From the IMG/VR virus record IMGVR_UViG_3300028840_008160, positions 248,001 to 312,000 of that record: DNA of 64,000 nucleotides; one strand, written 5' to 3'. Made by a program: the position numbers and the translations under genes. The DNA comes from a virus. Below are positions 1,303 to 60,280 of this stretch, in pieces (position 1 is the stretch's first letter; each line of letters begins with the position of its first letter). Below the pieces are notes generated by a model. The model had not been told where the DNA came from. It did not search any database and saw nothing but the letters and a program-made list of their open reading frames with translations.

Positions 1303-2055
1303 GTGGATATTCAATTAAGTAAAACAATTTCTTATGTCTTGAGACATGGCCCTCACGAGTTTGGTGTTGAACTTGATGATGAAGGTTGGGTAGAACTTGA
1401 TAAATTGTATACAGCATTAGCTAAGCATAGTCGTTTCAAGACTGTCACTGTTCAAGATATTGAAACAATTATTCGTGAATCAAATAAACAACGATTTGAA
1501 TTGAAAAACAACAAAATTCGTGCATTTTATGGCCATTCAATCAAAAAGAAAATACATCGGTCTTCAGTTGTTCCACCCAGCATACTATATCATGGTACAT
1601 CACCAGAAGCAGCAAAGTTAATTTTTGAAAAAGGGCAAGGATTATTGCCTATGGGTCGTCAGCATGTCCATTTAGCATCGACGATCAAGACTGCTATTAT
1701 AACAGGACGAAGAAAAGCAAGAAAGCCTGTGATATTAATTGTTGATGTAGTTGCTGCTCTTGGACATGTCAAATTTTATGCTGGAAATGAAGATATTTGG
1801 TTGGCAGAACCTGTACAAGTTGAGTTTTTGTCAAGATTCGAACCAAGTAAAGTTGTTGTGTCCGAGGGTATTGGTGGTACATGGCACTATCATTTAAGTT
1901 TTGAAAACAGCATTGCTACATCACTGTGCAGTAAACAGACGATGGCTTCGAATTTGTCTAGGAATTCATGGGGAATTAAATCTCACCTTAATGAGCGATA
2001 CTGCAATGAGTGTATAAGCATAGAGCAAAGTGTCATCTCTTTTATAAATTCGTAA
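1303..2055 (+). CDS. kptA: RNA 2'-phosphotransferase KptA/Tpt1
   Basis: Starts with GTG one base after the previous stop. The N-terminal winged-helix part has 'SKTISYVLRHGPHEFGV' with the conserved Arg-His, and the ADP-ribosyltransferase-like half has 'ILYHGTSPEAAKLIFEKG', 'GRQHVHLAS' and 'EDIWLAEPV'. KptA moves an internal 2'-phosphate from RNA to NAD+, the last step of tRNA-splicing type repair. Its phage role would fit the PNKP and RNA ligases at 14.1-16.0 and 41.1 kb. About 50 residues after the core (from 'SIATSLCSKQ') match nothing I know and end just before the next ribosome binding site. Confidence 0.9.
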   Translation: MDIQLSKTISYVLRHGPHEFGVELDDEGWVELDKLYTALAKHSRFKTVTVQDIETIIRESNKQRFELKNNKIRAFYGHSIKKKIHRSSVVPPSILYHGTSPEAAKLIFEKGQGLLPMGRQHVHLASTIKTAIITGRRKARKPVILIVDVVAALGHVKFYAGNEDIWLAEPVQVEFLSRFEPSKVVVSEGIGGTWHYHLSFENSIATSLCSKQTMASNLSRNSWGIKSHLNERYCNECISIEQSVISFINS

Positions 2056-2978: not shown

Positions 2979-3189
2979 TGTTCAACTATTAGAAGTCGTA
3001 GATCCAGAATTAGCAGGATATATTCAACAAATTGCTCAGGGAAAACTTAAAGCTGTAGTTCAAGATACTGAAGTTTATGCTAAAACGCCTTTTCAAGGAC
3101 TAATTCGAATAAATCTCGACGTTGGTCGTAACGACCCGTGCATATGTGGGTCTGGCAAAAAATTTAAGAAGTGTTGTGGAAAATCATGA
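2971..3189 (+). CDS. Small SEC-C motif protein
   Basis: 72 residues. The ATG at 2971 overlaps the stop of the reductase gene; a TTG at 2965 is possible but less likely. The C-terminus is a classic SEC-C zinc motif, '[19 protein letters not shown]', as at the end of SecA and in many small proteins that bind zinc and often another protein. The first 50 residues are unrecognised. It closes the first transcription unit before the structured intergenic region. Confidence 0.8.
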
Positions 3190-3216
3190 TGGTGTCGGAT
3201 CTATTTACTATGCTTT

Positions 3217-3261
3217 GCAGGTGAAGGTAGTAATCACGAGCCGGCATCGACGTTCGCCTGC
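3217..3261. other. Structured GC-rich intergenic element (possible small RNA or leader)
   Basis: GCAGGTGAA at 3217-3225 pairs with TTCGCCTGC at 3253-3261 over nine base pairs (one G-T). The enclosed 27 bases hold a smaller CGA/TCG stem around a GCCGGC core. The stretch is much richer in G and C than its surroundings and codes for nothing visible. It could be a processed RNA, a structured leader of the operon at 3345, or part of a compound terminator. No known RNA family is recognised. Confidence 0.3.
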
Positions 3262-3265
3262 CCTT

Positions 3266-3291
3266 GGGGAGTTTACTGCAGTAGACTCCCC
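3266..3291 (+). terminator. Near-perfect 26-base dyad, probable terminator
   Basis: GGGGAGT at 3266 pairs with ACTCCCC ending at 3291. The ten bases between continue the symmetry (TACTG/CAGTA), so the dyad is nearly perfect. A short, impure T-run follows. It probably ends the 2-3189 unit. With no free loop it could also be a protein-binding site. Confidence 0.45.
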
Positions 3292-3298
3292 TTTACTT

Positions 3299-3325
3299 TG
3301 ACAAAAAACTTGACTATTTAGATGT
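3299..3325 (+). promoter_or_regulatory. Candidate promoter of the five-gene operon
   Basis: TTGACA at 3299 is followed by TTGACTATTT at 3311, ahead of the operon starting at 3345. The TGACTAT core recurs before the genes at 32542, 54570 and 59019. The spacing does not fit a normal sigma70 pair, so this may be a phage-specific promoter. Confidence 0.35.
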
Positions 3326-3344
3326 ATTATTTCAAGGATAATAT

Positions 3345-4925
3345 ATGGACATAGAAATTGTTAGGGCATTGCATGAGTTGCACGATTTTGTCAACGAAAA
3401 CACTTCTCAATACTATCATACAAAGCCGCTAGTTTCGTCATCTTCGTCAATCGTTTTACCAACTGCTGTTCATTCGTTTGATGTAGTTTATGGATTGAAA
3501 GATTTGCTTCTTATAGGAGCGATTACTGAAAGTCCAGTGTTAATGACTGGCGGGACTGACCTTGGTAAAACTACATTAGCAAAACTTATGATGAATAGTT
3601 TGTTTGGTAATGATTGGCACAGACTTGATTTTGATCTTGATTTTGGTAAAGATGCATATACAGACATAAGTAGTGATTTCTTTCATGAGAAAGGTAAACG
3701 ATTGTCTGATCTTTACAGTTTACATGATTGGATGCGTTTACCGGGATTTATTGCTGATGAATTGAATGGTGCACATGCTAAGGTTGCAAGAAAAGCGTTA
3801 CATATTATTAAGGAAAAAGACATTACATTGCCAGATGGTAGACGTGCAAAAATAGGACACCCGTTAGATGATTCAGGAAACACATATCAATATCAAATTG
3901 CAACAATAAATGAGGGTAAAGATTATTCTGGTACATTTGATATGGATAAAGCACTGCGCCGGCGTACGACAATAGAAATTCCAATGGATATTTTTAAGCC
4001 AACGCCATTAGATAGATTACTTTTACAAAGGTCAAAGCAAACTGACGTGCAATTTTCAAATTTAGAAAATCATTTGTCAATGGTATTGCATATTCATAGA
4101 CATCTCAATCAATTAAATGTTCATCCAGTAGCAGAGATGTTCCTTGCTTATCTTGAGTCATTTGATTATTGCAAACATTCATTAACCCATGAAAAGTGCA
4201 GTGTAGAATCTAAGAATGGTTCAATTCAACACGTATGCACGCAACCAATTAGAATAGGAGAAACTGCAGCAACTGCAGCTGAACCTATTGGTTGTTTGTT
4301 TATGCGATTATTTGTTAATGAAATGTGTCCAAATGTCAGTGGTATAACTCCCGGTATATCAACTAATCTTGTCGCTGTTGCCCGTGCTTTCGCGCTATTA
4401 AGAGCAGTAAAATTTGTTGAATTAGTTTCTGGTTTTTGTCAAGGACAATTTGAACATCTTCTTAGTTATAAATTGAACAGACATGAATTATTTCGGTCGT
4501 CAATGCAAAAGTATATTGGCGATTATAATATTGATGATAAGCAATTAGCTAAGTTAGTTGTAACAAAATACATAAGTAAACTTGAAGTTGAACAATGCGA
4601 CATTTTGGCTGCAGCACCATTTGTTGCATATTCAAAATTGAATATTAGTTCTATATGGATTCTTAAGCATTATCAAGGAAATAGATTCGGATCTGTAAGT
4701 ACATTTATCAACGAAGCAAATATTAAGTTCAAAGAAGGGTTGTCTAGACCAGAATTTGAACAAATGGAAACTATGATAAAAGGAAATGTATCTAATGAAA
4801 ACATTAGCGAGTTAAAAGCATATTGCGATTCAAGTAATCCGTGGTTATGGCTTGTTATTTCTCCGTATTTGTCAAAATCAAAACCGTTAGATAACGATCA
4901 CATCAAAGCGCTATATGAATCATGA
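3345..4925 (+). CDS. MoxR-type AAA+ ATPase
   Basis: 526 residues. Walker A is GGTDLGKT (69-76), Walker B is 'FIADELNG' with Asp-Glu at about 138-139, a sensor-1 Asn sits in 'ATINEG', and the Arg-rich 'LRRRTTIEI' lies where MoxR proteins have their arginine finger. The AAA core covers about residues 45-240; the helical C-terminal 280 residues are unrecognised. MoxR ATPases usually remodel proteins together with a vWA-domain partner, and one lies two genes downstream. The stop overlaps the next start (ATGA). Starts at ATG 3345 behind AAGGA. Confidence 0.85.
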   Translation: MDIEIVRALHELHDFVNENTSQYYHTKPLVSSSSSIVLPTAVHSFDVVYGLKDLLLIGAITESPVLMTGGTDLGKTTLAKLMMNSLFGNDWHRLDFDLDFGKDAYTDISSDFFHEKGKRLSDLYSLHDWMRLPGFIADELNGAHAKVARKALHIIKEKDITLPDGRRAKIGHPLDDSGNTYQYQIATINEGKDYSGTFDMDKALRRRTTIEIPMDIFKPTPLDRLLLQRSKQTDVQFSNLENHLSMVLHIHRHLNQLNVHPVAEMFLAYLESFDYCKHSLTHEKCSVESKNGSIQHVCTQPIRIGETAATAAEPIGCLFMRLFVNEMCPNVSGITPGISTNLVAVARAFALLRAVKFVELVSGFCQGQFEHLLSYKLNRHELFRSSMQKYIGDYNIDDKQLAKLVVTKYISKLEVEQCDILAAAPFVAYSKLNISSIWILKHYQGNRFGSVSTFINEANIKFKEGLSRPEFEQMETMIKGNVSNENISELKAYCDSSNPWLWLVISPYLSKSKPLDNDHIKALYES

Positions 4926-5770
4926 TCAGTCACGATTTTTCAAGAATCAGAGAAGTTTTTCTCGATGAAGTTGGTGATGCAATTGATGACGTTCGCTTTG
5001 AGAACTTCATTAAGCATGCACTTAAGAGCTTTGCAGATAGATATTTGAGAAGCAGGAGCGTTGTTCATCCGCATAGCATATCTTACCGTAATTCTTCAGC
5101 ATCATTATCATTGACAGTTTTTGGTAGCAATGGACAACCTAATATGAGTAGGTGTCGATTTCAAGGTTTTTTCCATGGATGTACTGATGATGTTGTCAAG
5201 CAAATGCCTGAAGCTATTACTGTAGCTGAGTTTGATGAGGAAGCTAACATCAGCAACTTGACACAATTTTTGCAAAAGCATTTAGTGGAATCTGAAGAGA
5301 GAGATGTAACAATTGGTTTGTTAAATGTTCAAAGATCACAAAGACAGCTGAAGAAATTGACATTGCACCCGTTGACGTTAAACATTTGCAAACATATTGT
5401 AGATGAGAAGAAGCGACATAAATTTATGCATGAACGACATCTCGAGCGATCAGTGTCAAGGTTGTTATTTCATGAAGCAACGAAGCTATCACTTAAGCAG
5501 TCTCGTTATGATGATGATAGTATAAGGTCTCAAATACGGTCAGATGATAGGGGTCAATTAGTTCATGAATCATGCATACTTATAAGAAAAAGTAGTGGTT
5601 ACTATTTTTTGGAATATGAAGTACAATCTGCTTCTGAGATAAGATCACTAACAGCAACGACGATGAAAAACGCTATGCACTTTTTCAGCATGGTTCAAAA
5701 CAGTTTTTCATTGGATATGTTAGGTACTATTCAAATGATTGACAGCACTAGGAAAGCAGTCAATGACTGA
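4922..5770 (+). CDS. Unknown operon protein between the AAA+ and vWA genes
   Basis: 282 residues with no recognised domain. It is soluble-looking and mixed in charge, with a His- and Arg-rich middle ('DEKKRHKFMHERHLERS'). It overlaps the AAA+ gene by four bases and the vWA gene by eight, so all three are translationally coupled and probably work together. By position it could be an adaptor of the ATPase/vWA machine (inference). Confidence 0.75.
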   Translation: MISHDFSRIREVFLDEVGDAIDDVRFENFIKHALKSFADRYLRSRSVVHPHSISYRNSSASLSLTVFGSNGQPNMSRCRFQGFFHGCTDDVVKQMPEAITVAEFDEEANISNLTQFLQKHLVESEERDVTIGLLNVQRSQRQLKKLTLHPLTLNICKHIVDEKKRHKFMHERHLERSVSRLLFHEATKLSLKQSRYDDDSIRSQIRSDDRGQLVHESCILIRKSSGYYFLEYEVQSASEIRSLTATTMKNAMHFFSMVQNSFSLDMLGTIQMIDSTRKAVND

Positions 5771-7715
5771 CTTAAAACAATTCGTCACGCAAAAATGTGT
5801 CGACTTAATCAAACAAAAAGGTTGGCGACCTTTTCGTGATATAAGTGTTAAGTTTGAAAAAGACACGCCTGCTATGTTTATGGCTGCCTTAGGTATTGCG
5901 ACAAGACGGATTCAGATTACTGTGTATGATGAATCTGACAAAATGATTGAACAGCTTATTAGTCGTTATAGGCTTGAAACTACAACTATGGCTTTAATTG
6001 AAGCAATACTATATTTTTGTGTCGTTCATGAGCATTCGCATCATACTTGTTGTCCAAGAACGAAGGAAAATTTCGAAGCAATTATTGAAGGTGCTTACGA
6101 AGTTGTTAGTACGAAAGAATGCAGGAAAGAACGAATAGAATATGCTTGTTTCAACATTCACAATATGTTTTCAGATACTATTTTGAACGTTGTAAACTCT
6201 CATACTGATACTGATAAGATGGAATATCGTCAAGGTCTTGTTGAAACTTATGACACTGATCTATATTTTTCGTTACAAAAACGCCGACCAACAATTTTGG
6301 GATTTAAAGTTCCTGAATTTATGGAGCCAAAACAAGACAAAGCCATGACGCTATTTCTGCAGTCAATTTTTTTGATGTGCATGGTTGATCATAAGGCTAT
6401 TAGTAGAGTACGACAGCATTTCCCGATAGTATTTCTTGGCAACCAAAGATATCTATATAAGTTGATAACTGTGTTTACTGACGATGAAGAATTAACAGAT
6501 CAATTCATCAATGGGAACGTTGATTCTGCTAAATTGCCAATGTTTTTAGATAGAATTCAAGATACTATGTTATGGAAGCCGATGACTGTTGAATATACTA
6601 AGATTATTTATCAGTTTATGCGTCAACGTTACGATCAATTGAGTAATTCATTCACCAAACCACAACAAGGATCTGGACCGGGACAAGGTGCATCTGGCGG
6701 TCAACAACCACAACAATCTTCAGGTGAAAATCAACAGCAAAGTCAAGCGCAGCGAGCAAAAGACCAAAAAAAGACGGACAAATCGGCAGGGCAAGATGAC
6801 AAGAAGAAAAAGATAGAGAAAGACAAAGATGACAAGAATTCAGTAAAAGACTTTCTTGAGAAATTAGAACAGCAATTGAAAGATCGATTGCCGACGCCGT
6901 CACCGTTGTTGTTGAAATTTCCGCACTTAGACGAACTATACAAGCGCAGAGCAGAAAAGATGATGCTTTCGGCTGAAGTTGGTAATGGGCCTAACCCAGA
7001 GTATGTGTATCACTCTGGAAAAGATCAAATGGCGTTGCAAGAATTTGAGTTCAAAAATGTTGACTGGTCATCAACTGTTGTTGTTGATAATCAAGTGACA
7101 TTATTCAAGCGCGACATGCCGTTTTCGTTGCCTTTTGAAGTCGATGCTAAAGAAGGTAGTTTGCCTGATTTAGCTTTTATATATGACAGTAGTATCAGTA
7201 TGAAATTTGACCCTATAGCAGGAACTGGTGAATATCATTATGCTGTATTAGCATTTTATTCGATCTTGGCTGGGCTTGAATCAAAAGCATTGGCATACTA
7301 TCTGAAATATTTAGCTATAAATTTTTCAGAACGAACAATTTCTTCAGATTGGCAGACTTACAGTCGAATTGATCTTGTTAAGAAGACAATATTTGATTAT
7401 CAACATAATTGCACGGTGCTAGATCCAAAAGCGTTGCGTCATTTGAGAGAGAATAGAAGTGACAATGTAATTGTTTTTATGCTGTCAGACACTGATTTTA
7501 ATTTTGAAGAAAACACTCAAGCATTATTGCAAGAGGTAGATGCAATGATTGGTTGTGGCGGCATTGGGTTGTATTTATTTCAGCTTGGTCCACCAACGAC
7601 ATTTTCAATTGGTATTGAACAACGAGGTTTGCCAGTTCAGTATATTACATCTGCGCAAGACTTCATGAATAAAAGTATACAGTTTACAAAAGATTTGTAT
7701 GGGGAAGTTGTTTAA
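5763..7715 (+). CDS. Zincin-like plus vWA-domain protein (COG3864-like)
   Basis: 650 residues from the ATG at 5763, which overlaps the previous stop (ATGACTGA); an in-frame start at 5739 has less support. An HExxH zinc motif lies in 'VVHEHSHHTCC' (about 89-93). A Gln/Gly/Lys-rich linker spans about 300-365. The C-terminal part is a von Willebrand A domain with the metal-site motif DSSIS in 'IYDSSISM' (about 475) and a later 'MLSDTDFNFEENT'. Peptidase-vWA proteins of this kind travel with MoxR AAA+ ATPases. The zincin part may cleave, or only bind, client proteins; the third zinc ligand is not certain. Confidence 0.75.
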   Translation: MTDLKQFVTQKCVDLIKQKGWRPFRDISVKFEKDTPAMFMAALGIATRRIQITVYDESDKMIEQLISRYRLETTTMALIEAILYFCVVHEHSHHTCCPRTKENFEAIIEGAYEVVSTKECRKERIEYACFNIHNMFSDTILNVVNSHTDTDKMEYRQGLVETYDTDLYFSLQKRRPTILGFKVPEFMEPKQDKAMTLFLQSIFLMCMVDHKAISRVRQHFPIVFLGNQRYLYKLITVFTDDEELTDQFINGNVDSAKLPMFLDRIQDTMLWKPMTVEYTKIIYQFMRQRYDQLSNSFTKPQQGSGPGQGASGGQQPQQSSGENQQQSQAQRAKDQKKTDKSAGQDDKKKKIEKDKDDKNSVKDFLEKLEQQLKDRLPTPSPLLLKFPHLDELYKRRAEKMMLSAEVGNGPNPEYVYHSGKDQMALQEFEFKNVDWSSTVVVDNQVTLFKRDMPFSLPFEVDAKEGSLPDLAFIYDSSISMKFDPIAGTGEYHYAVLAFYSILAGLESKALAYYLKYLAINFSERTISSDWQTYSRIDLVKKTIFDYQHNCTVLDPKALRHLRENRSDNVIVFMLSDTDFNFEENTQALLQEVDAMIGCGGIGLYLFQLGPPTTFSIGIEQRGLPVQYITSAQDFMNKSIQFTKDLYGEVV

Positions 7716-9373
7716 TGAAAACATATGATATGCCATTGGTTGACTGGATTAGTGTCACTTTGCATAAAGATAGTCTGGCATTTGTACTCAATACTATTCG
7801 TTGCAATAAGCGATTGAAAAGTGATAATATGGAAAACTTCGAATCGAATAAACAATACATGGAGAAAATTCTACGTGAAGAAGTCATTAAGCAATTTAAT
7901 GACTCGAGACGACCGATTCTTGAAGTAATACTAAATTCTATAGATGCAAGACCAAAAACAGAACAGGAGTATGTTGTAAATGTTCAGATGACTAATAAGC
8001 AAGTTACTATAAATGATAATGGTGCAAGTTTGGATTTAGAACAAATTTTGAAGCTATTAATTATTCCATTTAATACAGAAAAAGATGGTATAGAAGAAAT
8101 TGGCAGGTTTGGTGTAGGTTTTCTGTCTAATTTTTACTATTGTGTGAATGATGTTAATGCTCGAATTGTCGTAAAAACAAAAACAAAGTCTGAGCAATAT
8201 CGCATAACATTCTATTGTGAGGATGAAACTGTTGCCGGTTTACGAATGAGACTGAAAAGACTTAGAGGCAAGGGACAAGAAGGAACGAATGTTGACATTC
8301 AATATTTAACATATGACAAGCACGATACATTTGGTTATTTAGAAAAGCATTTAGCTGATATTCCTTCATATATGGCAAAGGTTGTCATTAACAACTCACA
8401 AGTAAATGATAGAACTGAAAATAAATGGTTTGTTAAACCAGTCGAATTAGATATTCGTGGTAGGAAAATTAAACAAACAGTTGGATTACGTATTACAAAC
8501 GATCACAAAATTAGTTTGACATCACAAGGTGTTCTAGTCCAAACACGTTGCTATGAATCAGAATATGAATCAGAAGCATCAAATAAAACACAAACAGCTA
8601 ATATAGGTGCTACGATATCGTTTCCTGCCGCTGTCAAAGTCGTTGAAGGTCGTGATGAATTCAAACTTGATGACAATTTTACAAGGTGCGTTGCTGCTGT
8701 GTTTGAAGCATATGAAGCCTGCATAGTACAATCAAAATTGAATGATGATTTTGTATTTGACATGACAGGTTTGTTTCCTGAATTATTGGCAGCATTTTCA
8801 ATCACTAACATTCACATGATAGCTAATTTGGATGGTATTCGAACTGCATTATTAACGGACAAAAAATACGTACTTACTCGAAGACAGTATGCAATTTTGC
8901 AACCTTTTCTTGGTGAATCATTAGAAAGAGTAGCATTTCGCGCAACAGCTCAAGCATGTAGTTTTTGGATCGAACTATATGAATCAAAGGATGAGTTGAT
9001 GGAAGATTTGTTGACTCCAGTTAACATTTTGTCTAATGGTGTGCTTTTTCATAGTTCTTTGGCTATGCGAAATTTAGTAACACTATCGCAAATACTGGCA
9101 GACATTAAAGAATTTGTGAATGTTTACTTAGTTAACGTGACACCTCATGGTGAAAATCCTATAATGATATTGCCCAAAACTGAAATTGATGAAGCTCGTG
9201 TGTATATTAATTTGTCTCACCCTACGATTATCAATACTCATAAACTTAATGAGTATCAAATCATATGTGATTATTTCTATTTGCCGTTTATACAATCATT
9301 ACATGAGAAAATCACATCACATGATGATGCTGAAAATGAAGCTGTTACATATATCCCAAAGGTTGTTGCTTGA
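7715..9373 (+). CDS. Hsp90-like GHKL ATPase
   Basis: 552 residues; the start overlaps the previous stop (TAATG). The ATP-binding signature is clear: N-box 'LEVILNSIDA' (Glu, Asn, Asp), G1 box 'INDNGASLDL', and G2 box 'IGRFGVGFLS', which closely follows the GQFGVGFYS box of Hsp90. An Hsp90-like middle region probably follows, but the length is short of full Hsp90 and no MEEVD-type or dimerisation end is recognisable. Inferred role: an ATP-driven clamp handling proteins with the AAA+/vWA partners. Confidence 0.82.
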   Translation: MKTYDMPLVDWISVTLHKDSLAFVLNTIRCNKRLKSDNMENFESNKQYMEKILREEVIKQFNDSRRPILEVILNSIDARPKTEQEYVVNVQMTNKQVTINDNGASLDLEQILKLLIIPFNTEKDGIEEIGRFGVGFLSNFYYCVNDVNARIVVKTKTKSEQYRITFYCEDETVAGLRMRLKRLRGKGQEGTNVDIQYLTYDKHDTFGYLEKHLADIPSYMAKVVINNSQVNDRTENKWFVKPVELDIRGRKIKQTVGLRITNDHKISLTSQGVLVQTRCYESEYESEASNKTQTANIGATISFPAAVKVVEGRDEFKLDDNFTRCVAAVFEAYEACIVQSKLNDDFVFDMTGLFPELLAAFSITNIHMIANLDGIRTALLTDKKYVLTRRQYAILQPFLGESLERVAFRATAQACSFWIELYESKDELMEDLLTPVNILSNGVLFHSSLAMRNLVTLSQILADIKEFVNVYLVNVTPHGENPIMILPKTEIDEARVYINLSHPTIINTHKLNEYQIICDYFYLPFIQSLHEKITSHDDAENEAVTYIPKVVA

Positions 9374-12300
9374 TGGACAAAGAAAAGCTAATTAAACGAG
9401 AAGTTAGGCGATGTAAAGCTGACGGCGGGCGTGTTTACACGATATCATTAGCTGACTTAGTTATGATGCAAATGGTTGGCGATTTTGATGCGTTTCTTAA
9501 TATGATCGTTTCAAGAACAGATCCTGTAGCAATTGCTCAAGTGATTGAAGATACTAGAAAGAATGTGACAACTCCTCGATTGTTTTCTGGGATTGTAAAT
9601 AAAACTATTGAAGCGCAGTTTGGAAATAAATATGCAACTATTAGAGAATTAGGTCAAAATGCTATTGATTCATATCATTTGTCTGACATTCAAAAACCTG
9701 TAAGATTTCATGTTTGTGGTGATACATCTTATTTAGTATTGAGAATTAGAGATTATGGTTGTGGCATGCAGCTTAAAGATTTAGTAAAAGACTTATTGAT
9801 ACCATACAATTCAGGTAAAGAATTTGATCCTACAAAAATTGGTGAGCATGGTATTGGATGGTATTCAATTGTTGACGTTGCTGATCTTGTTAAAGTGACG
9901 ACGCGAACGCAAGGCGTGACATGTCAAGCTTTGATTTACAATAATGGAGAATGGCAAGCTACAATTCATCCTTTGTCGTCAAATGGTTTTAGTAAGAAGT
10001 TTGATCGTCACGATTTTGGTGGAACTGAAGTAAGTGCTTATGTGCAGTCAATGACAAATAATGATATTATTCATCATTTGTATCAATTTTTGGGAACCGT
10101 AGACAGATCATATGATGTAGTTTATAATAGTCATCAAATAAATTCTGTTGCAGAGACTTATAGAAGAGGTATGCCTGTCGAAACTACAATTAATAAAAAA
10201 CACAAACCTCTTGTCATGAGTGTATCTAAGCGTGAAATCCGCGGCAATTATAGTGACGAACGGTTCAAACACAGAAATCAAAATCTTCATAAAGTACTTT
10301 ACACACAACGTGGGTTATTTATCAAATACGATGATCCAAATTTTGAACAAGAGACCATTCATCATAAACTCATTTTTGACATGATGCAAATGGGTTTAGA
10401 TTTTTGGATTGATATACCTGAACATGTCGGTTTGACAAAAGGTCGAAACAATATTGTTGCTGATCATACTCCTATAGTATTAGACAGTACTTATAAAGCG
10501 TTTGAGAATGTATTTTTGGATATATTACTTGAAGACGATGAAGTATTAGAACACTCTTCTGGTGCATTGATGGCTAGTGTTGCTCAGATTTTTGAAAGAA
10601 AATATGCATTTAGAGTCAGAGAAGTTCAAAAGAATCGATACAGCTTAAAACGACGGATGTCGTCGCTATTTGCTGCTGCGCTAAGCAGTTGTATTGACGC
10701 CATTAGATCTGTGCTGACTGTTTTAGCTACTATGATAAAATTTGCTGTTTGTGATTTGCCAAAATTGTTATGGCAGCTCGGCAAACTCGAGGTTAAACTG
10801 TCAAAAGACGTTTTAGTAAAAACAGCATTTGTGATTGGTATATTGTGCTTCGCTGGTTCTAGTACTTGGGGAGTAATGTTATTGTATAAGTCTTTTGGTT
10901 GGGCGCCGTTTTTATACATGCTTTATTTTCTGATAATTGAAGCAGCTGGTTGTGGTGCATATTATTTGTTAAAAAGTATGCTGAAATATTCTGTTCATTG
11001 CGCAATGGGTTTGCGTGTTGTTTTTCAATATTTGGGGACGAATGCTATACGTGATATAATTGACTTTGGTCGCGGAACAAATGTGATATTTCAAACATTA
11101 ATGCGTAATTTATCATGGGATAAGATGTCTGACATTGGTGTAATGGGAATTTGTTTGATTCCAGTATATATTGCGCTTTGTATTGTACAAATAGTTTGGC
11201 ATACAATTAAGTGGCTAGGGTTGTTGATCGTAAAAGGTTTATGTTCATTGAAACATCCGGCGTTACTAGCACTAAGAGGTTTGCTAATTGCTAAAGTATA
11301 TGTAATTAAGTGGTGGATGGCTGGGCTTCATTTTATTGGTTTGTATATTCACATGGAAGAAAAAAGAGAACGAAAACGTTTAAAGTATTGTAGACGCATA
11401 TCAAAACGATATCTATCATTTATGCATAAAGATGCATTCTTCAAGCGCATTGTACATAAGAAAATGATTAATGCAACAACTTATTATAGTGAAGCAGAAG
11501 CAGCAAGACAAAGAGATGATTCAATGTCATCCATGTTGAGAACGTCATTTGTCGAAACACTTAATGATGTTGCTGGAATATTTTCGTTAAGTGATACACT
11601 GGGGCAACTTATTCCAACGCAAGATTATACTAGTCACAGATATCACGGATTGTCAAAACAAATACAAAAACGTCAGGTGAAGATATCAATTGATGATGTT
11701 ATACAATATTATTTAGAAATGCGATTGAAGTATCAAAAGGACAACAGTAGTTTGACGTTTCATCATGGTGATGTGTTTGTTCAGTACAAGAATCCATTAA
11801 TACAATCAATCATTGATAAAATGGAACAAGTATCTGTCGACATCAGGAATCAGTATGATGTATCAATACTTGAAGATCATTTAGATAACATTGGCGCTGT
11901 ACTTGTACTATTTGGTTTGATGTTTTATTTCATGACAGGTATTGGTTTTGCGCATATGATTTTGAGTTTTATATTTAGATCGCGTGTTAACAATCCATTT
12001 CTCAAAGTCAAGTTCTATATTAAGACGCGTGATTTTATTGTAACATCGGCACGGTGGCTATTTATTGAGAAAAAAGTGCATGTACGATTGGTTCGTTACA
12101 TAATAAGAGGAATTAAGCATTGTATTCGACAAATACCGGACACACTGAATGAGTTAAGAAAGCGCGGTGCTAGTGCATTAAAGATAGTTGTTACATTACC
12201 GTTTATTCTTATAGGCAAAACTGCAAGATTTATGTTTGTTAATGTCATTGTTCCTGTTTGTTGCATGCTTAATCCATTAAGATATCCAACGTACGTAGCA

Positions 12301-13344
12301 TTTGTGTTCGAAAAAGTGTCAATTACAGTTATAGATTTTTTTAGGAACATTAGACAACCATCTCGACAACAGGCTAAGCAAAATCATGATGGATATATAG
12401 CAAAACAAAAAGAAACTGAGCGAGCAAAAGTTAAGCAGTCAAAAAAGATGTTGAAAGCTTTGCTAAAAAATGCGAGCATGTTTGAAAAGTTTTATCATTC
12501 ATGGGTTGAATGGTTTCATAATTCAGCTTTGTTCTATTTCTTTGGTGATGGTTCTTATCGAGGTAAAGATTTTGAAGGAATGTCAAAAGCAAAACTTGCT
12601 AATATTGTTCAATTAGTACGAGTAGCTAAAGGATATTACGATTATTACTGTATGATTGAAGCAATGGATGAAGAAATTTGTAGAGCATTACACAAAAAAT
12701 TATACAAGATATCATTTACTCATCATAATAGACTTTCTCATGTACATAGTCATATGATAGCATTAGATAGAGATTTACAAGTTAATATAGGCGCATCGCC
12801 TAACTATGCTACGCCTGTAATACAATCATATTTTAGATCACAAACATTTGATCACAAATCTGAGAAATCAATTGAAACTTTTGCATTACATTTAATGGAT
12901 GCAATGATTCATTTAAGAGCACATCGTCATGCTAGTGACGCAATGCAAAAACAGCATTCGATTACATTTCATAAAGAGAAAGTCGAGTTAAGACGGAGAG
13001 TCGTTAAGTATTTTCTCGAGAACAATATTAGACCATTAGATATTGTTAAAAGACATTTAGGCACAAATGAAGAAATAGAAGATGTATTTTACAAACTAGA
13101 TAGTGTCGAATTTTCATGTTTAGCGAAGATGACAATTAGACGTTTGAAACATGAAAAGTTAAAATATGATGTTGCACGCGAACAAATAAGGTTAGAGAAA
13201 GAGGAACAAAAAAGAAAAGCTGCTGAACGTAAGGCAGAAGAAGCTAAGGAGAAACAAGAAGAAGAGAAAAAGAAACAAGAAGAAAAAGAGGAAAAGAAGG
13301 TCGAGGAGATTGTCGCAAGGATTAACAGACTCCAAGTCATATGA
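9373..13344 (+). CDS. Giant GHKL ATPase with membrane segments and coiled-coil tail
   Basis: 1323 residues; ATG at 9373 overlaps the previous stop (TGATG). An N-terminal GHKL ATPase carries 'IRELGQNAIDS' (N-box), 'IRDYGCGMQL' (G1) and 'IGEHGIGWYS' (G2). Hydrophobic stretches follow at about 482-532, 586-660, 838-870 and 935-970, suggesting several transmembrane helices. The last 60 residues are a Lys/Glu-rich coiled coil. It differs from its Hsp90-like neighbour, so the operon has two separate GHKL ATPases, one probably anchored in the inner membrane. I know no close family with this architecture. Confidence 0.8.
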   Translation: MDKEKLIKREVRRCKADGGRVYTISLADLVMMQMVGDFDAFLNMIVSRTDPVAIAQVIEDTRKNVTTPRLFSGIVNKTIEAQFGNKYATIRELGQNAIDSYHLSDIQKPVRFHVCGDTSYLVLRIRDYGCGMQLKDLVKDLLIPYNSGKEFDPTKIGEHGIGWYSIVDVADLVKVTTRTQGVTCQALIYNNGEWQATIHPLSSNGFSKKFDRHDFGGTEVSAYVQSMTNNDIIHHLYQFLGTVDRSYDVVYNSHQINSVAETYRRGMPVETTINKKHKPLVMSVSKREIRGNYSDERFKHRNQNLHKVLYTQRGLFIKYDDPNFEQETIHHKLIFDMMQMGLDFWIDIPEHVGLTKGRNNIVADHTPIVLDSTYKAFENVFLDILLEDDEVLEHSSGALMASVAQIFERKYAFRVREVQKNRYSLKRRMSSLFAAALSSCIDAIRSVLTVLATMIKFAVCDLPKLLWQLGKLEVKLSKDVLVKTAFVIGILCFAGSSTWGVMLLYKSFGWAPFLYMLYFLIIEAAGCGAYYLLKSMLKYSVHCAMGLRVVFQYLGTNAIRDIIDFGRGTNVIFQTLMRNLSWDKMSDIGVMGICLIPVYIALCIVQIVWHTIKWLGLLIVKGLCSLKHPALLALRGLLIAKVYVIKWWMAGLHFIGLYIHMEEKRERKRLKYCRRISKRYLSFMHKDAFFKRIVHKKMINATTYYSEAEAARQRDDSMSSMLRTSFVETLNDVAGIFSLSDTLGQLIPTQDYTSHRYHGLSKQIQKRQVKISIDDVIQYYLEMRLKYQKDNSSLTFHHGDVFVQYKNPLIQSIIDKMEQVSVDIRNQYDVSILEDHLDNIGAVLVLFGLMFYFMTGIGFAHMILSFIFRSRVNNPFLKVKFYIKTRDFIVTSARWLFIEKKVHVRLVRYIIRGIKHCIRQIPDTLNELRKRGASALKIVVTLPFILIGKTARFMFVNVIVPVCCMLNPLRYPTYVAFVFEKVSITVIDFFRNIRQPSRQQAKQNHDGYIAKQKETERAKVKQSKKMLKALLKNASMFEKFYHSWVEWFHNSALFYFFGDGSYRGKDFEGMSKAKLANIVQLVRVAKGYYDYYCMIEAMDEEICRALHKKLYKISFTHHNRLSHVHSHMIALDRDLQVNIGASPNYATPVIQSYFRSQTFDHKSEKSIETFALHLMDAMIHLRAHRHASDAMQKQHSITFHKEKVELRRRVVKYFLENNIRPLDIVKRHLGTNEEIEDVFYKLDSVEFSCLAKMTIRRLKHEKLKYDVAREQIRLEKEEQKRKAAERKAEEAKEKQEEEKKKQEEKEEKKVEEIVARINRLQVI

Positions 13345-17814: not shown

Positions 17815-18066
17815 ATGTCAAAACTATCATCATTACTTAAAGATGGTCAATCTGACAATTGGTCATCGACTAGATTTGCAATGTTATTTACAGTATTATT
17901 GTCTAATATTGTTATTTTTGGTACATGGGCAGCAGTTTGTATTTTGAAGCAAGACATAATAATGATTCCCTCTAGTTTAATTACGTTGTATGGTCTTGCT
18001 AATGGCATAATAGTAACTGGGAAAGTGACGCAAAAACATTTTGAAGGACAGCATACTAAAGTATGA
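17815..18066 (+). CDS. Small membrane protein, possible holin
   Basis: 83 residues with two hydrophobic helices ('FAMLFTVLLSNIVIFGTWAAV' region and 'MIPSSLITLYGLANGIIVTG') joined by a short loop, and charged ends. Size and topology fit a class II holin or another small phage inner-membrane protein. It has a very strong site (AAGGGAGG) that may be hidden by a hairpin, which would suit a protein needing tight control. No endolysin lies beside it, so the holin call is tentative. Confidence 0.5.
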   Translation: MSKLSSLLKDGQSDNWSSTRFAMLFTVLLSNIVIFGTWAAVCILKQDIIMIPSSLITLYGLANGIIVTGKVTQKHFEGQHTKV

Positions 18067-18536
18067 AGCATGTAGCTCAGATACAAACAGAATTTGCGAA
18101 AGAAGCTATTAGTCGTTGGGAAAATCTGTCTTATGAGTCGCAAAAAGCATATTTGAGACGCCATCCTAAGACAAAGCGGCGCGTAACTATGCAACCTATT
18201 AAAGGCACAAAACGACTTGTACGTAGAGCGCTTGACAAGTTTAACAGCTTGAAACGTTTTATGAACAGGTCTAGTAATAAGAAATATGGTTTGAATGAAG
18301 TTAATACGCGAGAAAGAATGTATTCAATATTGACAAAGGCAATTAAAGGAAAAGATGTTAAGTTACTAGATGCTGCTGGTTGGGGCTTATGGTATGAAAA
18401 TGAAAAAGATGTTGAGAATGTAACAACTCAACTTAACAATAAAGTACGTTCACTTATCAGATCTATTAAGAGTATACGCAACCAATTACATAGAGAAAAC
18501 ATGAAAAAAATTAAAGAACAGGTGGAGGCTGTATGA
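18063..18536 (+). CDS. Motif-bearing protein, candidate head cargo
   Basis: 157 residues; overlaps the holin-like gene by four bases. Residues 1-15 (MKHVAQIQTEFAKEA) carry the shared N-terminal motif, followed by the second module: 'RWENLSYESQKAYL', then RHPKTKRR. The rest is basic and helical (pI clearly high by inspection), as in phage internal head proteins. No enzyme domain seen. Confidence 0.75.
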   Translation: MKHVAQIQTEFAKEAISRWENLSYESQKAYLRRHPKTKRRVTMQPIKGTKRLVRRALDKFNSLKRFMNRSSNKKYGLNEVNTRERMYSILTKAIKGKDVKLLDAAGWGLWYENEKDVENVTTQLNNKVRSLIRSIKSIRNQLHRENMKKIKEQVEAV

Positions 18537-20629
18537 ATCACACTGCTCAAATTCAGAAAGAATTTGTAAAAGAGGCACGCAAGTGGGACGATCTTACGTA
18601 TGAGGAACAAAAAGGATATCTTTCAAGGCATCCTGCTTCAAAAAGAAAGATAACTGCAAAGCAGGGTATGCCGTCAAAGAAAAAACTGAAAGAAAAACTT
18701 GAGAAACGAATTCCTGGCAGTAAGAAAGAAAAAGTTGATGCAGCAACTACTGAAAGACAACAGAAATTAAAAGAGAGAGCTGAAGAACGAAAAAAAGAGA
18801 AAGACATTAGTAAGCGTCAACAAGAACGAGCTGTAAAAAAATCATATCCACCATCACCAGTTTTAGATAAAGCACTTGGTAAATTATATACAAAGTATGT
18901 TGCATTGTTTGAAGCTCATGGACCAATATCAAAATATAATGAATCTTCCCCAGTGACTGCAAAAATTAATCAAATGTGGAAAGCTGCTTTTCCAAGTGAA
19001 AAGATTGAAGGTGAATATGTTTTTGATGCAGTTGAACGTGAATTAGGGCTGGCATCAAAAAGTCATGGTCCTGGAAGAAAAAAGGGTAAACCTACACGTA
19101 AAACGTTACCGACTAAAGAAGAATTTATTGACGCGATGAAAGAAACGTTTATTAATACTGATCGCGAATATCCAAAAGTTGAGGGCGAAAAAGATCCTCT
19201 GATAGCTGAAAACAAAAAATATGGATTTAGTGAACCGATATCTGGTAGTGAAAGAACAAGACTTACAGCAATAGAAGAATCATTGCCAGATGACCAAAAG
19301 AAATTTGCTAAACATTTAGTTGTTAAAGATAGAACATATGGTGTAGATGATAGAGGTCATGATTGGAATGGTCAACGTGAACTAGTTGATACTAGTGATG
19401 ATAGACCTATTATCAAATCAACATATAACAGTCCAAATTATACTGACAAACGAGAAATTACACATTTTCTTGTGCCTATAACTAGTCGATTTGCTGTGAA
19501 AAACTGGGCTCGTGGAATAGGTGGATTAGAGTACGCGCAATTCGATACGCTTGAAAAAGCAAAAGCTGGTATGAGTCAATTGCCAGAACAAGAAACAAAA
19601 GCAAAACTTCGTAATGAAATAGAAGAACTAACAAAGAAGATTAACAAAACTTCTGAAACTATTATTAAAGAAGGATATGGTGAAAATGATCCACCATCTG
19701 GCAGTACTGTAAGAATGATTGCCAGATCAATTTTGGAAGCACCTCGAGAAGATGTGTATTCAACAAATTACAATTCGCAAGGAAAAGTTATTGGTAAATC
19801 GCTTTACAGAAAAGGTCGCGAATTTTTGTTGACTCCTGAACAACAAAAACAGGTTGTAAAAGTAATATCTAATCCGTCTTCTGCTAGTGCTGAAGATATT
19901 GTTGTAGCAAAAGAACACTTCGATTACTTTGTTGACGATTTAGAAAGTAATAAAGATTTACAATCTGAATATGATAAAAAGTATTTGAATAGATTTTTAC
20001 AGCACAAAGACAAATATAAGAAAGCAATTGATAAGATTGAACCAATTGTTATTTTAAGACAGAAGCTGTCAGACCAGCATGGTCATCAAACAAAAGAAGA
20101 TGTCAAACTTCCAGAAGGTTTTGAATTTGCTGATAAGCCGACAATGTCTCATGAATTTAGTGGAGCTGATTTCTTTGTGAAAAGTAAAGATGGTGATATT
20201 GAAATGGCAATAAGCACAAGTGAACCAGCTGTGGGTGGTTATTCGCCAGTTTATGGTGAAGTTTTCTATAAAGTACCAGGGCAAGACGGACTTTATACGC
20301 TTGGTCGAAGAGGAGTTGATTCTGGACTAGATGGCGACTGGAATGATGATGTCAATGATGTAATTAATGAAGCAATCGGACGAGTTAGAGAAAAACAGGA
20401 TAGAATATCAAGATCAGTAACTGTATCAGTGGGTAAGAGCTCTTGGCATGTTACACCAGAAAATTTAGAAAAAATGAAAGAAAAGCTTCGTAATGGTAAA
20501 ACTGTGACTTTCATGCCGCATGGTTTTGGCACAGGATATTATGTGAAAGCTAGACTGGGTCAACCAACAACTGAAACTGAACAAATATTTGGTTTGCCTA
20601 TATCTGTTAGTTCGTTTGACGCTGATTAA
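18533..20629 (+). CDS. Large motif-bearing protein, candidate head cargo
   Basis: 698 residues; overlaps the previous gene by four bases and has GGTGGAGG upstream. It starts MNHTAQIQKEFVKEA, then 'RKWDDLTYEEQKGYL' and RHPASKRK. A Lys/Glu-rich segment (about 40-105) follows, then a long mixed region without a recognised domain. 'ISGSERTRL' at about 240 also appears as 'ISGSERTGL' in the motif protein at 52450. A strong terminator follows. Candidate internal virion protein; activity unknown. Confidence 0.75.
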   Translation: MNHTAQIQKEFVKEARKWDDLTYEEQKGYLSRHPASKRKITAKQGMPSKKKLKEKLEKRIPGSKKEKVDAATTERQQKLKERAEERKKEKDISKRQQERAVKKSYPPSPVLDKALGKLYTKYVALFEAHGPISKYNESSPVTAKINQMWKAAFPSEKIEGEYVFDAVERELGLASKSHGPGRKKGKPTRKTLPTKEEFIDAMKETFINTDREYPKVEGEKDPLIAENKKYGFSEPISGSERTRLTAIEESLPDDQKKFAKHLVVKDRTYGVDDRGHDWNGQRELVDTSDDRPIIKSTYNSPNYTDKREITHFLVPITSRFAVKNWARGIGGLEYAQFDTLEKAKAGMSQLPEQETKAKLRNEIEELTKKINKTSETIIKEGYGENDPPSGSTVRMIARSILEAPREDVYSTNYNSQGKVIGKSLYRKGREFLLTPEQQKQVVKVISNPSSASAEDIVVAKEHFDYFVDDLESNKDLQSEYDKKYLNRFLQHKDKYKKAIDKIEPIVILRQKLSDQHGHQTKEDVKLPEGFEFADKPTMSHEFSGADFFVKSKDGDIEMAISTSEPAVGGYSPVYGEVFYKVPGQDGLYTLGRRGVDSGLDGDWNDDVNDVINEAIGRVREKQDRISRSVTVSVGKSSWHVTPENLEKMKEKLRNGKTVTFMPHGFGTGYYVKARLGQPTTETEQIFGLPISVSSFDAD

Positions 20630-23945: not shown

Positions 23946-23965
23946 TGATAGATTACTATCTATCA
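23946..23965 (+). promoter_or_regulatory. 8-base dyad overlapping a start codon
   Basis: TGATAGAT, four bases, ATCTATCA: a perfect dyad whose last base is the A of the ATG at 23965. A related TTTGATAGAT...TTACTAT lies at about 28108-28131. It may be an operator or promoter element, and there is no usual Shine-Dalgarno just upstream. Confidence 0.4.
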
Positions 23966-24309
23966 TGAAATATTTAGCTCAAATACAAGCTGAATTTCTT
24001 AAGTTGTCGCGGTCATTTGAAGAAATGACTATGGAACAACAACAAGAATATCTAAATATGCATCCTAGATCTAAAAAGTCACTTAGGGGTCAAGCGTTAA
24101 ACATTGCGCGTAAATTAGGATTGTATTACAACGGTTATCAACCAGAAATTCATGCGTTCATGTTTACAGAACCCGAAACTGAATCATCGTTTTATGCAAG
24201 AAATTTTGAAGAAGCTGAACATAAGATTCATGAAAAATGCGTGCTTTTTGGTCTTAAACATGCGTCTATCATCAAGCATGAGTATAAGTATCTCGCTACG
24301 CATTGTTAA
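23965..24309 (+). CDS. Motif-bearing protein, candidate head cargo
   Basis: 114 residues. MKYLAQIQAEFLKLS is the shared N-terminal motif, then a diverged second module ('FEEMTMEQQQEYL', 'HPRSKKS'). The rest is short and unrecognised ('ARNFEEAEHKIHEKC'). After the TAA the same frame stays open for another 22 codons, which may mean a recent C-terminal truncation. Confidence 0.7.
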   Translation: MKYLAQIQAEFLKLSRSFEEMTMEQQQEYLNMHPRSKKSLRGQALNIARKLGLYYNGYQPEIHAFMFTEPETESSFYARNFEEAEHKIHEKCVLFGLKHASIIKHEYKYLATHC

Positions 24310-34882: not shown

Positions 34883-35863
34883 ATGATTGATTTTTTTAAA
34901 CGACTAATTCAATATTTGCGAAATTTATTTTTGGCAAAACAAGCATTTTGGCCAGAGAGTACGTTTGACATTCTTAACAAGGAGAGTACCGTGAGATGTC
35001 CAAAACTGGGTTGGATGCGTGATCTTCCAGATATTAGAGACTATAGTGTTGATACGCCAAAAGTACAAGAAACGTTAAAGATGTATCCTCAATATGGTTC
35101 AACAATACCAGACACTGTTGATTTAAGACAATGGTGCTCTCCTATAGAAGATCAACAAGCTTTAGGTTCTTGCACAGCCAATGCTGCAGTTGGCGCAGTC
35201 GAGTTGTTACAAAGGGCATATTATGGTAATCATATTGATATGTCTAGATTATTTGTTTACAAAACTACAAGAAATCTTATGCAAAGAACAGGTGATACTG
35301 GTGCTACTATTCGTGGAACAATGAAAGCTCTTGCAATGTTTGGTTCGCCACCGGAGCAATATTGGGATTATGATATTCAAGATTTTGATCTTGAACCATC
35401 ACAATTTGCTTATGCAATGGGTCAAAACTACAAGGCAATTAGTTATTACAGATTAGATCCACAAATAAAAACCACAGAAGCTATGAGTCAAACAGTTCAG
35501 CGTATTCAACAACAACTAGCTTGGGGTATTCCTTGTGTGTTTGGTTTCATAGTTTTTTACTCAGTTCCAAGACCTGGTGATGGGAAAATTGATATTCCAA
35601 TGCCAACGCCCGGTGATTATCCAATGGGAGGTCATGCTGTACTAGCTGTTGGTTATGATAATAACCGTATGATGCCAACGACTACTCCTGGCAAATCTGT
35701 GAAAGGTGCGTTTCTTATTCGTAATTCGTGGGGAACTTCATGGGGTGATGGTGGATATGGCTGGTTGCCCTATTCATTTGTAAGGTCTGGTCTTGCAGTT
35801 GATTGGTGGGCACTTGCATATACTGATCATATTGATCTTTCACAATTTGACACCAGGAGATAA
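34883..35863 (+). CDS. Papain-like (C1) cysteine peptidase
   Basis: 326 residues from ATG 34883. A GTG at 34991 with a perfect AAGGAG also fits as start and would remove a 36-residue extension ('MIDFFKRLIQYLRNLFLA'). The catalytic set is complete: Gln and Cys in 'DQQALGSCTANAAVGA', His in 'GGHAVLAVGYD', Asn in 'IRNSWGTSWGDGGYG'. C1 peptidases cut proteins; in phages they may process structural proteins or attack host proteins. A second copy lies at 51617. No signal peptide is obvious. Confidence 0.85.
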   Translation: MIDFFKRLIQYLRNLFLAKQAFWPESTFDILNKESTVRCPKLGWMRDLPDIRDYSVDTPKVQETLKMYPQYGSTIPDTVDLRQWCSPIEDQQALGSCTANAAVGAVELLQRAYYGNHIDMSRLFVYKTTRNLMQRTGDTGATIRGTMKALAMFGSPPEQYWDYDIQDFDLEPSQFAYAMGQNYKAISYYRLDPQIKTTEAMSQTVQRIQQQLAWGIPCVFGFIVFYSVPRPGDGKIDIPMPTPGDYPMGGHAVLAVGYDNNRMMPTTTPGKSVKGAFLIRNSWGTSWGDGGYGWLPYSFVRSGLAVDWWALAYTDHIDLSQFDTRR

Positions 35864-51616: not shown

Positions 51617-52453
51617 ATGATGAGTTATAATTTGAATTTGATGAAGGATCCGGACGACAAACGCGACTTTCCTTTTTTAGCTAGTTTTACACCAGAAGAA
51701 CTAAAAGCAGGTCGTTTGTCAAACATTCCTGAAATAATTGATCATAGTGATTTGATGTCACCTGTAAAAGATCAAGGTCAACTCGGTAGTTGTGTAGGAT
51801 TTGCTGTTACGGCATTGAAAGAATGGCAAGAGCAGAGAGAACATAAAGAAGAAGTTGAATCGGGTAAGTTTGATCATCGCGATGAAAAGTATTACGACTT
51901 ATCTGAATCTTGGGTATATTGGATGTCAAAAAAGATTGACTGTTGGCCAGGGCTTGAAGGAACATCAATTCGTTATGCTATGAAAGTACTTAATACACTC
52001 GGCGTGCCTTGTGAAAAAGCTTGGCCTTATGACGACAAAGTTAAGGGCGAACCTAAAAGTTGGGCTAAACTCGTTGCTAGATGGTCACTTATTGGTTCAT
52101 ATTATAGAGTAAACACATTGAATGAACTTATCACTGCGTTAGCTCAACACCCAGTAGCAATCGGTATTGCTTGTTTTGAAGGCATTTTCTTTGTTGGTGA
52201 AGATGGCATTGTGCCGATGCCAAGAGATTCTGCTTATTGCTATGGTGGACATGCTGTTTGTGCTGTTGGCTATGATCAACATAAGAAGTTAATAAAGTTC
52301 AAGAATAGTTGGAGTACGAATTGGGGAGAAAAGGGTTACGGTTACTTACATTATGATTATGTAGGTACGAACAATTACATGTGGGATGCTTGGTATTGTA
52401 AAGACCTTTCTGTAACAAAAGACATGCTTGAAGGCACTAGGAATTTGATATGA
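51617..52453 (+). CDS. Papain-like (C1) cysteine peptidase, second copy
   Basis: 278 residues behind AGGGAG. Catalytic residues are complete: Gln/Cys in 'VKDQGQLGSCVGFAV', His in 'YGGHAVCAVGYD', Asn in 'FKNSWSTNWGEKGYG'. 'DPDDKRDFPF' at the N-terminus fits phage-type C1 peptidases. It is clearly diverged from the copy at 34883. Its stop overlaps the next gene, a motif-bearing candidate head protein, so processing of virion or leader sequences is one possible role. Confidence 0.87.
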   Translation: MMSYNLNLMKDPDDKRDFPFLASFTPEELKAGRLSNIPEIIDHSDLMSPVKDQGQLGSCVGFAVTALKEWQEQREHKEEVESGKFDHRDEKYYDLSESWVYWMSKKIDCWPGLEGTSIRYAMKVLNTLGVPCEKAWPYDDKVKGEPKSWAKLVARWSLIGSYYRVNTLNELITALAQHPVAIGIACFEGIFFVGEDGIVPMPRDSAYCYGGHAVCAVGYDQHKKLIKFKNSWSTNWGEKGYGYLHYDYVGTNNYMWDAWYCKDLSVTKDMLEGTRNLI

Positions 52454-53061
52454 AACACTTGGCAAGAATTCAAACAGACTTTCTTAAACAAGCTGCTGGT
52501 TGGGAAGATTTTTCAAGACAACGGCAATTGGAATACTTAGGTCAGCATCCTAAATCAAAAAGGCACATTACTGCTGATCTTGTGAATGCAAGCAAAGATA
52601 CAAAAGATAGCTATTTAAGTGGGATGAATAGTTGGGTACAAAATGAAAAACATCATAAACCGTTAGCAATTGTATTGAAAAATTTCATGCACAAATATTT
52701 ACCTGAACGATTCTATAAAAAATTGTACGATGAAGATTTACACGGTGATTTACCGCCAGATTTGTTTGAACGTCTTGCTAACAAATATGATTTACCAATT
52801 TATTTGGATGAAACATCTGGAAAACTGCCTGAAAGCGCGTTAGCTCTTATTAATGAAAAGACAGAAACTGTCTTACCAGGACAAGCGAGCGGAGAGTATT
52901 TGAGGATTAAAGTTGCTACTGGTGTTGTTAATGGCAAGAGAATGATAATTTCGGGCAGTGAAAGAACGGGTTTGGCTGATATCAAAGACAAAGAGGGCAA
53001 AGTAATTGGGCATCATCCATATAAGAGTCATGCAGTTGAATTGATTTTGGGGGCAAAATGA
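52450..53061 (+). CDS. Motif-bearing protein, candidate head cargo
   Basis: 203 residues; ATGA overlap with the peptidase. MKHLARIQTDFLKQA, then 'GWEDFSRQRQLEYL' and HPKSKRH: both shared modules. The rest includes 'ISGSERTGLADIKDKEGK', close to a stretch in the protein at 18533. No enzyme motif. Its own stop overlaps the next motif-bearing gene. Confidence 0.72.
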   Translation: MKHLARIQTDFLKQAAGWEDFSRQRQLEYLGQHPKSKRHITADLVNASKDTKDSYLSGMNSWVQNEKHHKPLAIVLKNFMHKYLPERFYKKLYDEDLHGDLPPDLFERLANKYDLPIYLDETSGKLPESALALINEKTETVLPGQASGEYLRIKVATGVVNGKRMIISGSERTGLADIKDKEGKVIGHHPYKSHAVELILGAK

Positions 53062-60089: not shown

Positions 60090-60280
60090 AATTTGTTAAG
60101 GAAATCATAAGAAAACATAAATTGAGAAAGATGAATCAGCTAATTAGAGATACTGAAAACTTTATAGCATGTGCAGATAGTGATAATGCTCTGTCATTAG
60201 CTAGAAACTGTCGCAAACGAAGATCTGAATTAGTTGATTTGTTAGAAAAGCTCGAACAAAAGAAACGAGAACTAGAATGA
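60086..60280 (+). CDS. Small coiled-coil protein, 64 residues
   Basis: ATGA overlaps on both sides link it to the aldolase and CoaD-CoaE genes. Basic helix ('VKEIIRKHKLRKMNQLIRD') and a final coiled coil ('LVDLLEKLEQKKRELE'). No family recognised. Confidence 0.6.
   Translation: MKFVKEIIRKHKLRKMNQLIRDTENFIACADSDNALSLARNCRKRRSELVDLLEKLEQKKRELE

Follow-up and report, generated by a model that had tools for sequence, protein, structure and literature searches.

Five-gene cassette of a MoxR-like ATPase, a zincin-vWA protein and two Hsp90-like ATPases common to a tailed phage and Nanoarchaeota

What might five overlapping viral genes do that together encode a MoxR-like AAA+ ATPase, a protein without known family, a putative zincin joined to a von Willebrand factor A (vWA) domain and two Hsp90-like GHKL ATPases, and does this set occur anywhere else? 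The genes lie in IMG/VR virus record IMGVR_UViG_3300028840_008160 (329,800 bases), of which a stretch of 64,000 nucleotides (positions 248,001-312,000 of that record, hereafter the window) was analyzed; as five head-to-tail open reading frames (ORFs) they fill window positions 3345-13344 of the + strand (Table 1). The five-gene order was looked for elsewhere and recurs in three contigs of Nanoarchaeota (L101, L136 and L176); an order confined to this DNA, which the preliminary description had named as a refutation, is thus not what was seen. Judged by sequence identity and gene order, the phage cassette is almost certainly homologous to this archaeal cassette, gene for gene and in order.

The first archaeal copy was detected by scanning GTDB genomes with a pattern derived from the motif common to both GHKL proteins, and later copies were obtained via profile searches. 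Contig JAUYDG010000053.1 (L101), labelled Nanoarchaeota, has the complete set in unchanged order, with identities to phage genes 1-5 of 51, 22, 41, 39 and 58/41/28%, respectively; its gene-5 copy contains an in-frame TAA (L101:7488), indicative of a decaying or broken gene or of mis-assembly. All five genes are likewise present in L136, where gene 5 extends to the contig end, and in L176, where it is truncated there. Three partial copies cut by contig ends, carrying genes 1-3 (L137), 2-5 (L177) and 4-5 (L180), bring the total in Nanoarchaeota (Nanobdellota) genomes to three five-gene and three incomplete copies, and the archaeal junctions, too, show short overlaps or come close to overlapping. 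L101 may have been mis-binned, which is unlikely for L136 because the latter adjoins archaeal-type genes, namely those for eIF-6 (aIF6), prefoldin and FtsY. A fusion of genes 3 and 4 considered in another contig (L178) was rejected due to unread bases and a probable frame shift between the halves.

In the archaea the set is patchy: at a strict cut-off the gene-4 profile matched 2 of 371, 2 of 103 and 6 of 353 genomes in three samples that overlap one another, and none of 382 Planctomycetota genomes, a sample without positive control. The zincin-vWA profile matched 32 of the 371 genomes of the phylum, most of the inspected ones having only a MoxR gene paired with a zincin-vWA gene, and this two-gene version is commoner in Nanoarchaeota than the five-gene set. 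The cassette is thus a cross-domain module of patchy occurrence, which is accessory to the phage and scattered among the archaea. The phage-to-archaeal distance between cassette copies is about the same as the archaeal-to-archaeal distance, and in trees the branch that sets the archaeal rows apart reaches support values of only 49/61 and 67/82, so that neither direction of transfer is favoured; our claim is limited to sharing between a bacterial phage and archaea, with neither donor nor recipient named. Recent import from the sampled archaeal copies was considered and is ruled out, since the G+C content of the operon (34.8%) equals that of the phage (35.0%) and the copies range from 42 to 47%.

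The record is that of a tailed phage: its terminase large subunit matches known phages, and a tail sheath, a tape measure and a head-maturation-protease-like protein are encoded. A bacterial host is indicated by the phage-encoded SmpB, trigger factor and NusG. The preliminary description of this DNA had regarded the set as new for a phage, and the searches agree with it. Nothing of the set was found by tblastn of genes 1, 3 and 4 against 50,697 phage records or of gene 1 against 72,556 plasmids; scans of IMG/VR with 8-mers of genes 1, 3, 4 and 5 and with degenerate GHKL and MoxR patterns, which detect close kin or shared motifs only, confirmed no relative. Weak MoxR and GHKL matches in fecal fragments lie on contigs without other operon genes, and in two huge phages as well as a Microcystis phage no relatives of genes 2-5 accompany the MoxR-type genes. 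The closest phage by terminase (69%) is a 416-kb sister record, with which 183 of 331 ORFs are common, including 59 of 66 in the structural block at 42-135 kb (sheath and terminase at about 70% identity). All five operon genes are absent from this sister record, which is possibly incomplete. The least shared long stretch is formed by the last 82 kb of the record, beginning with the window, with 26 of 103 ORFs found in the sister phage.

The genes overlap at 4/4 junctions, and the junction sequences (ATGA, ATGACTGA, TAATG and TGATG) read exactly as first described. The overlaps by themselves carry little weight: of 303 same-strand neighbours in the phage, 91 (30%) abut or overlap, and its genome contains five stretches with four or more such junctions in a row. 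What distinguishes the set from a chance arrangement is the recurrence of its order, with similarly short overlaps, in genomes of archaea. The proposed single operon of five genes is supported. A terminator-like hairpin possibly separates the operon from the upstream gene; this is weak evidence, as four such sites were found versus 4.6 expected in shuffles. Promoter-like sites showed no excess over chance.

The designation of gene 1 as MoxR-type stands as far as profile comparison goes: hhalign related it at 94.9% to known jumbo-phage MoxRs and at 100%, over most of the protein, to those of Nanoarchaeota, although the phage copy on its own remains under the Pfam cut-off and an archaeal copy is just at that of AAA_5. 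It has a MoxR-related AAA+ core with Walker A and B motifs and is therefore placed in the MoxR class, subfamily aside. Gene 2 yielded no match in curated Pfam, PHROG or NCBIfam. It is a candidate adaptor, since its N-terminal stretch is kept (DFsRIgElFy, then FIkHA) and the remainder is divergent. The HExxH motif ascribed to the vWA partner was found in gene 3, whose listed ORF begins at a TTG upstream of the ATG, and the metal ion-dependent adhesion site (MIDAS) of the vWA domain is present as well. The residues given for both motifs in Table 1 are, together with D138, invariant among six aligned homologues, which is in line with a predicted zincin and a predicted MIDAS; N134, D138 and N142 follow downstream of HEHSHH, and the third metal ligand is a candidate only. 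Several paralogues of about 280 residues flank MoxR and zincin-vWA pairs in other nanoarchaeal contigs (L141, L146, L152 and L153); they have a common N-terminal motif, e.g., VLGQRTRKxNIDYGLAxRLN, and are candidate adaptors or substrates.

Two GHKL/Hsp90-like ATPases had been proposed, and genes 4 and 5 fit this assignment: gene 4 passes the HATPase_c_3 cut-off of Pfam (29.8 versus 25 bits), and hhalign puts both nearest to Hsp90, with 96.7% to HtpG and 93.3% to rIIA for gene 4 and 98.1% and 88.9%, respectively, for gene 5. They are paralogues over about 390 amino acids (BLASTP 1e-10), adjacent and paralogous in all copies that show both, and the predicted GHKL residues are conserved between phage and archaeal copies. 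Like Hsp90/HtpG, they carry an Hsp90-type GHKL ATPase domain with an IGxFGVGF-type lid motif; however, they are two different subunits and the match is confined to the ATPase domain, the middle and C-terminal dimerization domains of HtpG being unrecognizable in either by hhalign. With phage rIIA they share an N-terminal GHKL domain and a variable C-terminus, but they are closer to Hsp90, they lack the GLGSKSP-like motif seen in the proteins of phiW-14 and ME3, and no rIIB family match was found for a partner. Hydropathy of the phage copy backs the membrane segments ascribed to gene 5, whereas they are weaker or absent in the archaeal copies; the extreme C-terminus LAxMTxRRL is conserved in the latter despite their lower hydrophobicity. 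Other nanoarchaeal genomes (L181 and L182) additionally contain distant pairs of GHKL proteins and arrays in which large GHKL proteins alternate, with no MoxR or vWA gene nearby.

How does the cassette relate to known systems? RavA-ViaA, NorQ-NorD and CoxD-CoxE consist of a MoxR ring and a vWA cochaperone partner, a combination that genes 1 and 3 resemble; to our knowledge, none of them includes a zincin or GHKL partners. Two known kinds come nearest to the cassette, namely the MoxR/metallopeptidase-vWA pair of jumbo phages and the MoxR-vWA conflict systems. The former was described with a proposed role in virion assembly, e.g., ASV44729.1/ASV44728.2 of Agrobacterium phage Atu_ph07 (Iyer et al., 2021; PMC7824862), and was found again here in Atu_ph07, SCTP-2, phage G (where the genes are non-adjacent), GAP32 and PBS1. 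As in the cassette, where one gene stands between genes 1 and 3, a MoxR gene lies near a zincin-vWA fusion gene. By contrast, the jumbo-phage peptidase is DUF2201 (PF13203), whose profile matches the five jumbo phages and not gene 3, and the wider archaeal family connects to these proteins by the vWA halves only (hhalign 90.9%). No annotated GHKL or rIIA-type pair stands beside the MoxR/vWA pair in the five inspected phages; PBS1 has a topoisomerase IV subunit nearby. The ternary conflict systems share the MoxR and vWA core, sometimes with peptidases, and have VMAP, iSTAND, FtsH or beta-propeller proteins as third partners, whereas the five-gene set has a GHKL pair instead and Hsp90 is not mentioned in their description (PMC7159879). 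None of these third-partner domains was found in genes 2, 4 and 5, a divergent VMAP being still possible for gene 2. In the open-access literature we found no description of the five-gene set, nor of either nearest kind with a GHKL pair, and the set thus seems to be previously undescribed.

Client proteins are known to be remodelled by MoxR rings together with vWA partners and clamped by ATPases of the GHKL/Hsp90 type, and zincins can cut them. As the best reading, to which we nevertheless give somewhat less than an even chance, the five products may form one membrane-linked, ATP-driven chaperone-protease machine. The paralogous and adjacent genes 4 and 5 suggest a hetero-clamp pair that would hold clients, and the hydrophobic C-terminal part of gene 5 suggests that this pair would sit at the membrane. 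Remodelling of the client would fall to the MoxR ring; of the two halves of gene 3, the vWA domain would dock client or ring via its MIDAS and the zincin would cut the client or an inhibitor; and gene 2 would act as an adaptor setting specificity. Since the MoxR/zincin-vWA pair and the GHKL pair each occur alone, two sub-machines may have been joined. In infection, the phage would most likely use the machine for remodelling or destroying membrane-linked proteins of the host or of competitors rather than for virion building, a step held with less confidence than the mechanism. Several observations weigh against the joint mechanism. The zincin region of gene 3 has no significant profile match to any known peptidase; AlphaFold models from two-row alignments were unusable, with predicted local distance difference test (pLDDT) values of 36 for gene 3 and 45 for gene 2; and the archaeal gene-5 copies are less hydrophobic than the phage copy. 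Moreover, the halves are separable, as genes 4 and 5 occur without genes 1-3 in L179 and many nanoarchaeal genomes have the MoxR/zincin-vWA pair without genes 4 and 5.

A possible, though on balance unlikely, alternative, close to the defence or counter-defence role also considered in the preliminary description, is a conflict system for defence or superinfection exclusion, in which the MoxR-vWA-GHKL core would restrain a protease effector until an invader is sensed at the membrane, and which the phage would direct against competing phages or the host. This would be in line with the patchy archaeal distribution, the position of the phage copy in the most variable part of the genome, the toxin-antitoxin-type neighbours of archaeal copies (HEPN/nucleotidyltransferase genes near L101 and a PIN gene near L176) and the existence of MoxR-vWA ternary conflict systems (PMC7159879). 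However, the putative zincin is the sole effector-type domain seen, the defining third component of the ternary systems was not detected, PADLOC gave only weak matches (TmtA at 1e-5 for gene 4 and mad8 at 0.014 for gene 1), and one copy adjoins the aIF6, prefoldin and FtsY genes and another SecF/SecD-like genes. The latter neighbourhood, in which a GHKL pair is preceded by an unclassified HExxH-bearing ORF and followed by SecF and a PDZ/SecD-like gene (L173), argues instead for an envelope or export quality-control machine for the maturation of membrane complexes, comparable to RavA-ViaA or NorQ-NorD, which the phage would have acquired as cargo for host takeover. MoxR-vWA pairs of known function mature membrane or metal-bearing complexes (PMC3893208; PMC9976466), and trigger factor is also phage-encoded. 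Nonetheless, we consider this explanation doubtful: the SecF/SecD evidence is one neighbour of one copy, and no fixed client gene accompanies the operon in L101, L136, L176 and the other copies inspected.

The preliminary description had also suggested a chaperone-protease machine for virion assembly, of which the machine is retained as the best reading and the purpose is disfavoured. Such a role has been proposed for Atu_ph07-type phages (PMC7824862), whose pair recurs in five jumbo phages; yet the sister phage keeps the structural block and lacks all five genes, which makes a core role in virion assembly unlikely, the full set is present in cellular, archaeal genomes, and the DUF2201 profile does not detect gene 3, so that we regard this explanation as quite improbable. 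Least of all would we expect genes 4 and 5 to be a duplicated factor of rIIA type for exclusion or lysis inhibition, with a function separate from that of genes 1-3, despite their weak tblastn matches to T4-type rIIA and the match of a joint GHKL profile to rIIA-like genes of phiW-14, ME3 and XacN1, as Hsp90 is the closer profile, the GLGSKSP-like motif is absent and the archaeal GHKL copies come together with genes 1-3.

Extending the chaperone-protease reading, the paired, membrane-tethered Hsp90-like ATPase together with the MoxR-zincin-vWA unfoldase-protease might represent a kind of machine not described so far, which DPANN-type archaea and bacterial giant phages would have exchanged and which would serve in conflict between genomes, i.e., host takeover, superinfection exclusion or archaeal antiviral immunity; this is speculative and, in our estimate, rather unlikely. 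If true, a whole five-gene protein-remodelling machine would be common to small-genome archaea and a bacterial virus with its gene order kept, providing a tractable model for MoxR-vWA systems that act with Hsp90-like ATPases and newly connecting the cell biology of DPANN archaea with phage biology. Furthermore, what the MoxR/vWA pairs of jumbo phages do, to date predicted only, could be tested directly.

Table 1. Features of the five-gene operon and of other loci in the window (window coordinates).
Feature	Position	Strand	Details
Terminator-like hairpin GGGGAG...CTCCCC, then T-rich	3266-3291	+	inside intergenic gap 2979-3344 before the operon
Gene 1, MoxR-like AAA+ ATPase	3345-4925	+	526 aa; Walker A GGTDLGKT, Walker B region LPGFIADELN; profile comparison
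Gene 2, protein without known family	4922-5770	+	282 aa; homologues in same place of archaeal operons
Gene 3, zincin-like N-terminal region, Gln/Lys-rich linker, C-terminal vWA	5763-7715	+	650 aa from ATG at 5763
HEHSHH metallopeptidase motif (gene 3 residues 89-94)	6027-6044	+	H89, E90, H93 invariant, 6 homologues
MIDAS DSSIS of vWA (gene 3 residues 475-479)	7185-7199	+	D475, S477, S479 invariant, 6 homologues
Gene 4, Hsp90-like GHKL ATPase A	7715-9373	+	552 aa; HATPase_c_3, hhalign; no hydrophobic segment
Gene 5, Hsp90-like GHKL ATPase B, long C-terminal part	9373-13344	+	1323 aa from ATG; BLASTP, hhalign
Gene 5 hydrophobic stretches (residues ~476-504, 590-608, 837-867, 938-956)	10798-12240	+	hydropathy; probable membrane part
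Examples of proteins with shared N-terminal stretch	18063-18536, 18533-20629, 23965-24309, 52450-53061		many more across the record

Beyond the operon, a Tpt1/KptA RNA 2'-phosphotransferase with a C-terminal extension is encoded upstream of it (window 1303-2055). About 20 otherwise dissimilar phage proteins carry the N-terminal stretch MKHxAQIQxEFxKxA and/or, near the N-terminus, W(D/N)DLSYEEQxxYLxRHPxSKR (examples in Table 1). This looks like a shared N-terminal tag, perhaps for virion targeting, and sister-phage proteins match the same short stretch by BLAST, suggesting a tag there too. A CoaD-CoaE-like fusion (nucleotidyltransferase and dephospho-CoA kinase) and SmpB are phage-encoded at window 60277-61440 and 61955-62389, respectively. 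Two papain-like cysteine protease genes (window 34883-35863 and 51617-52453, Pfam having been applied to the first only) have the same sister-phage gene as their best match. Finally, a PP2C phosphatase gene (L002:7803-8549), an overlapping gene of kinase-like appearance (8521-10380) and, about 8 kb on, a vWA gene (18353-19081) recall the TerY vWA/PP2C/kinase triad, of which only the PP2C and vWA assignments were confirmed.

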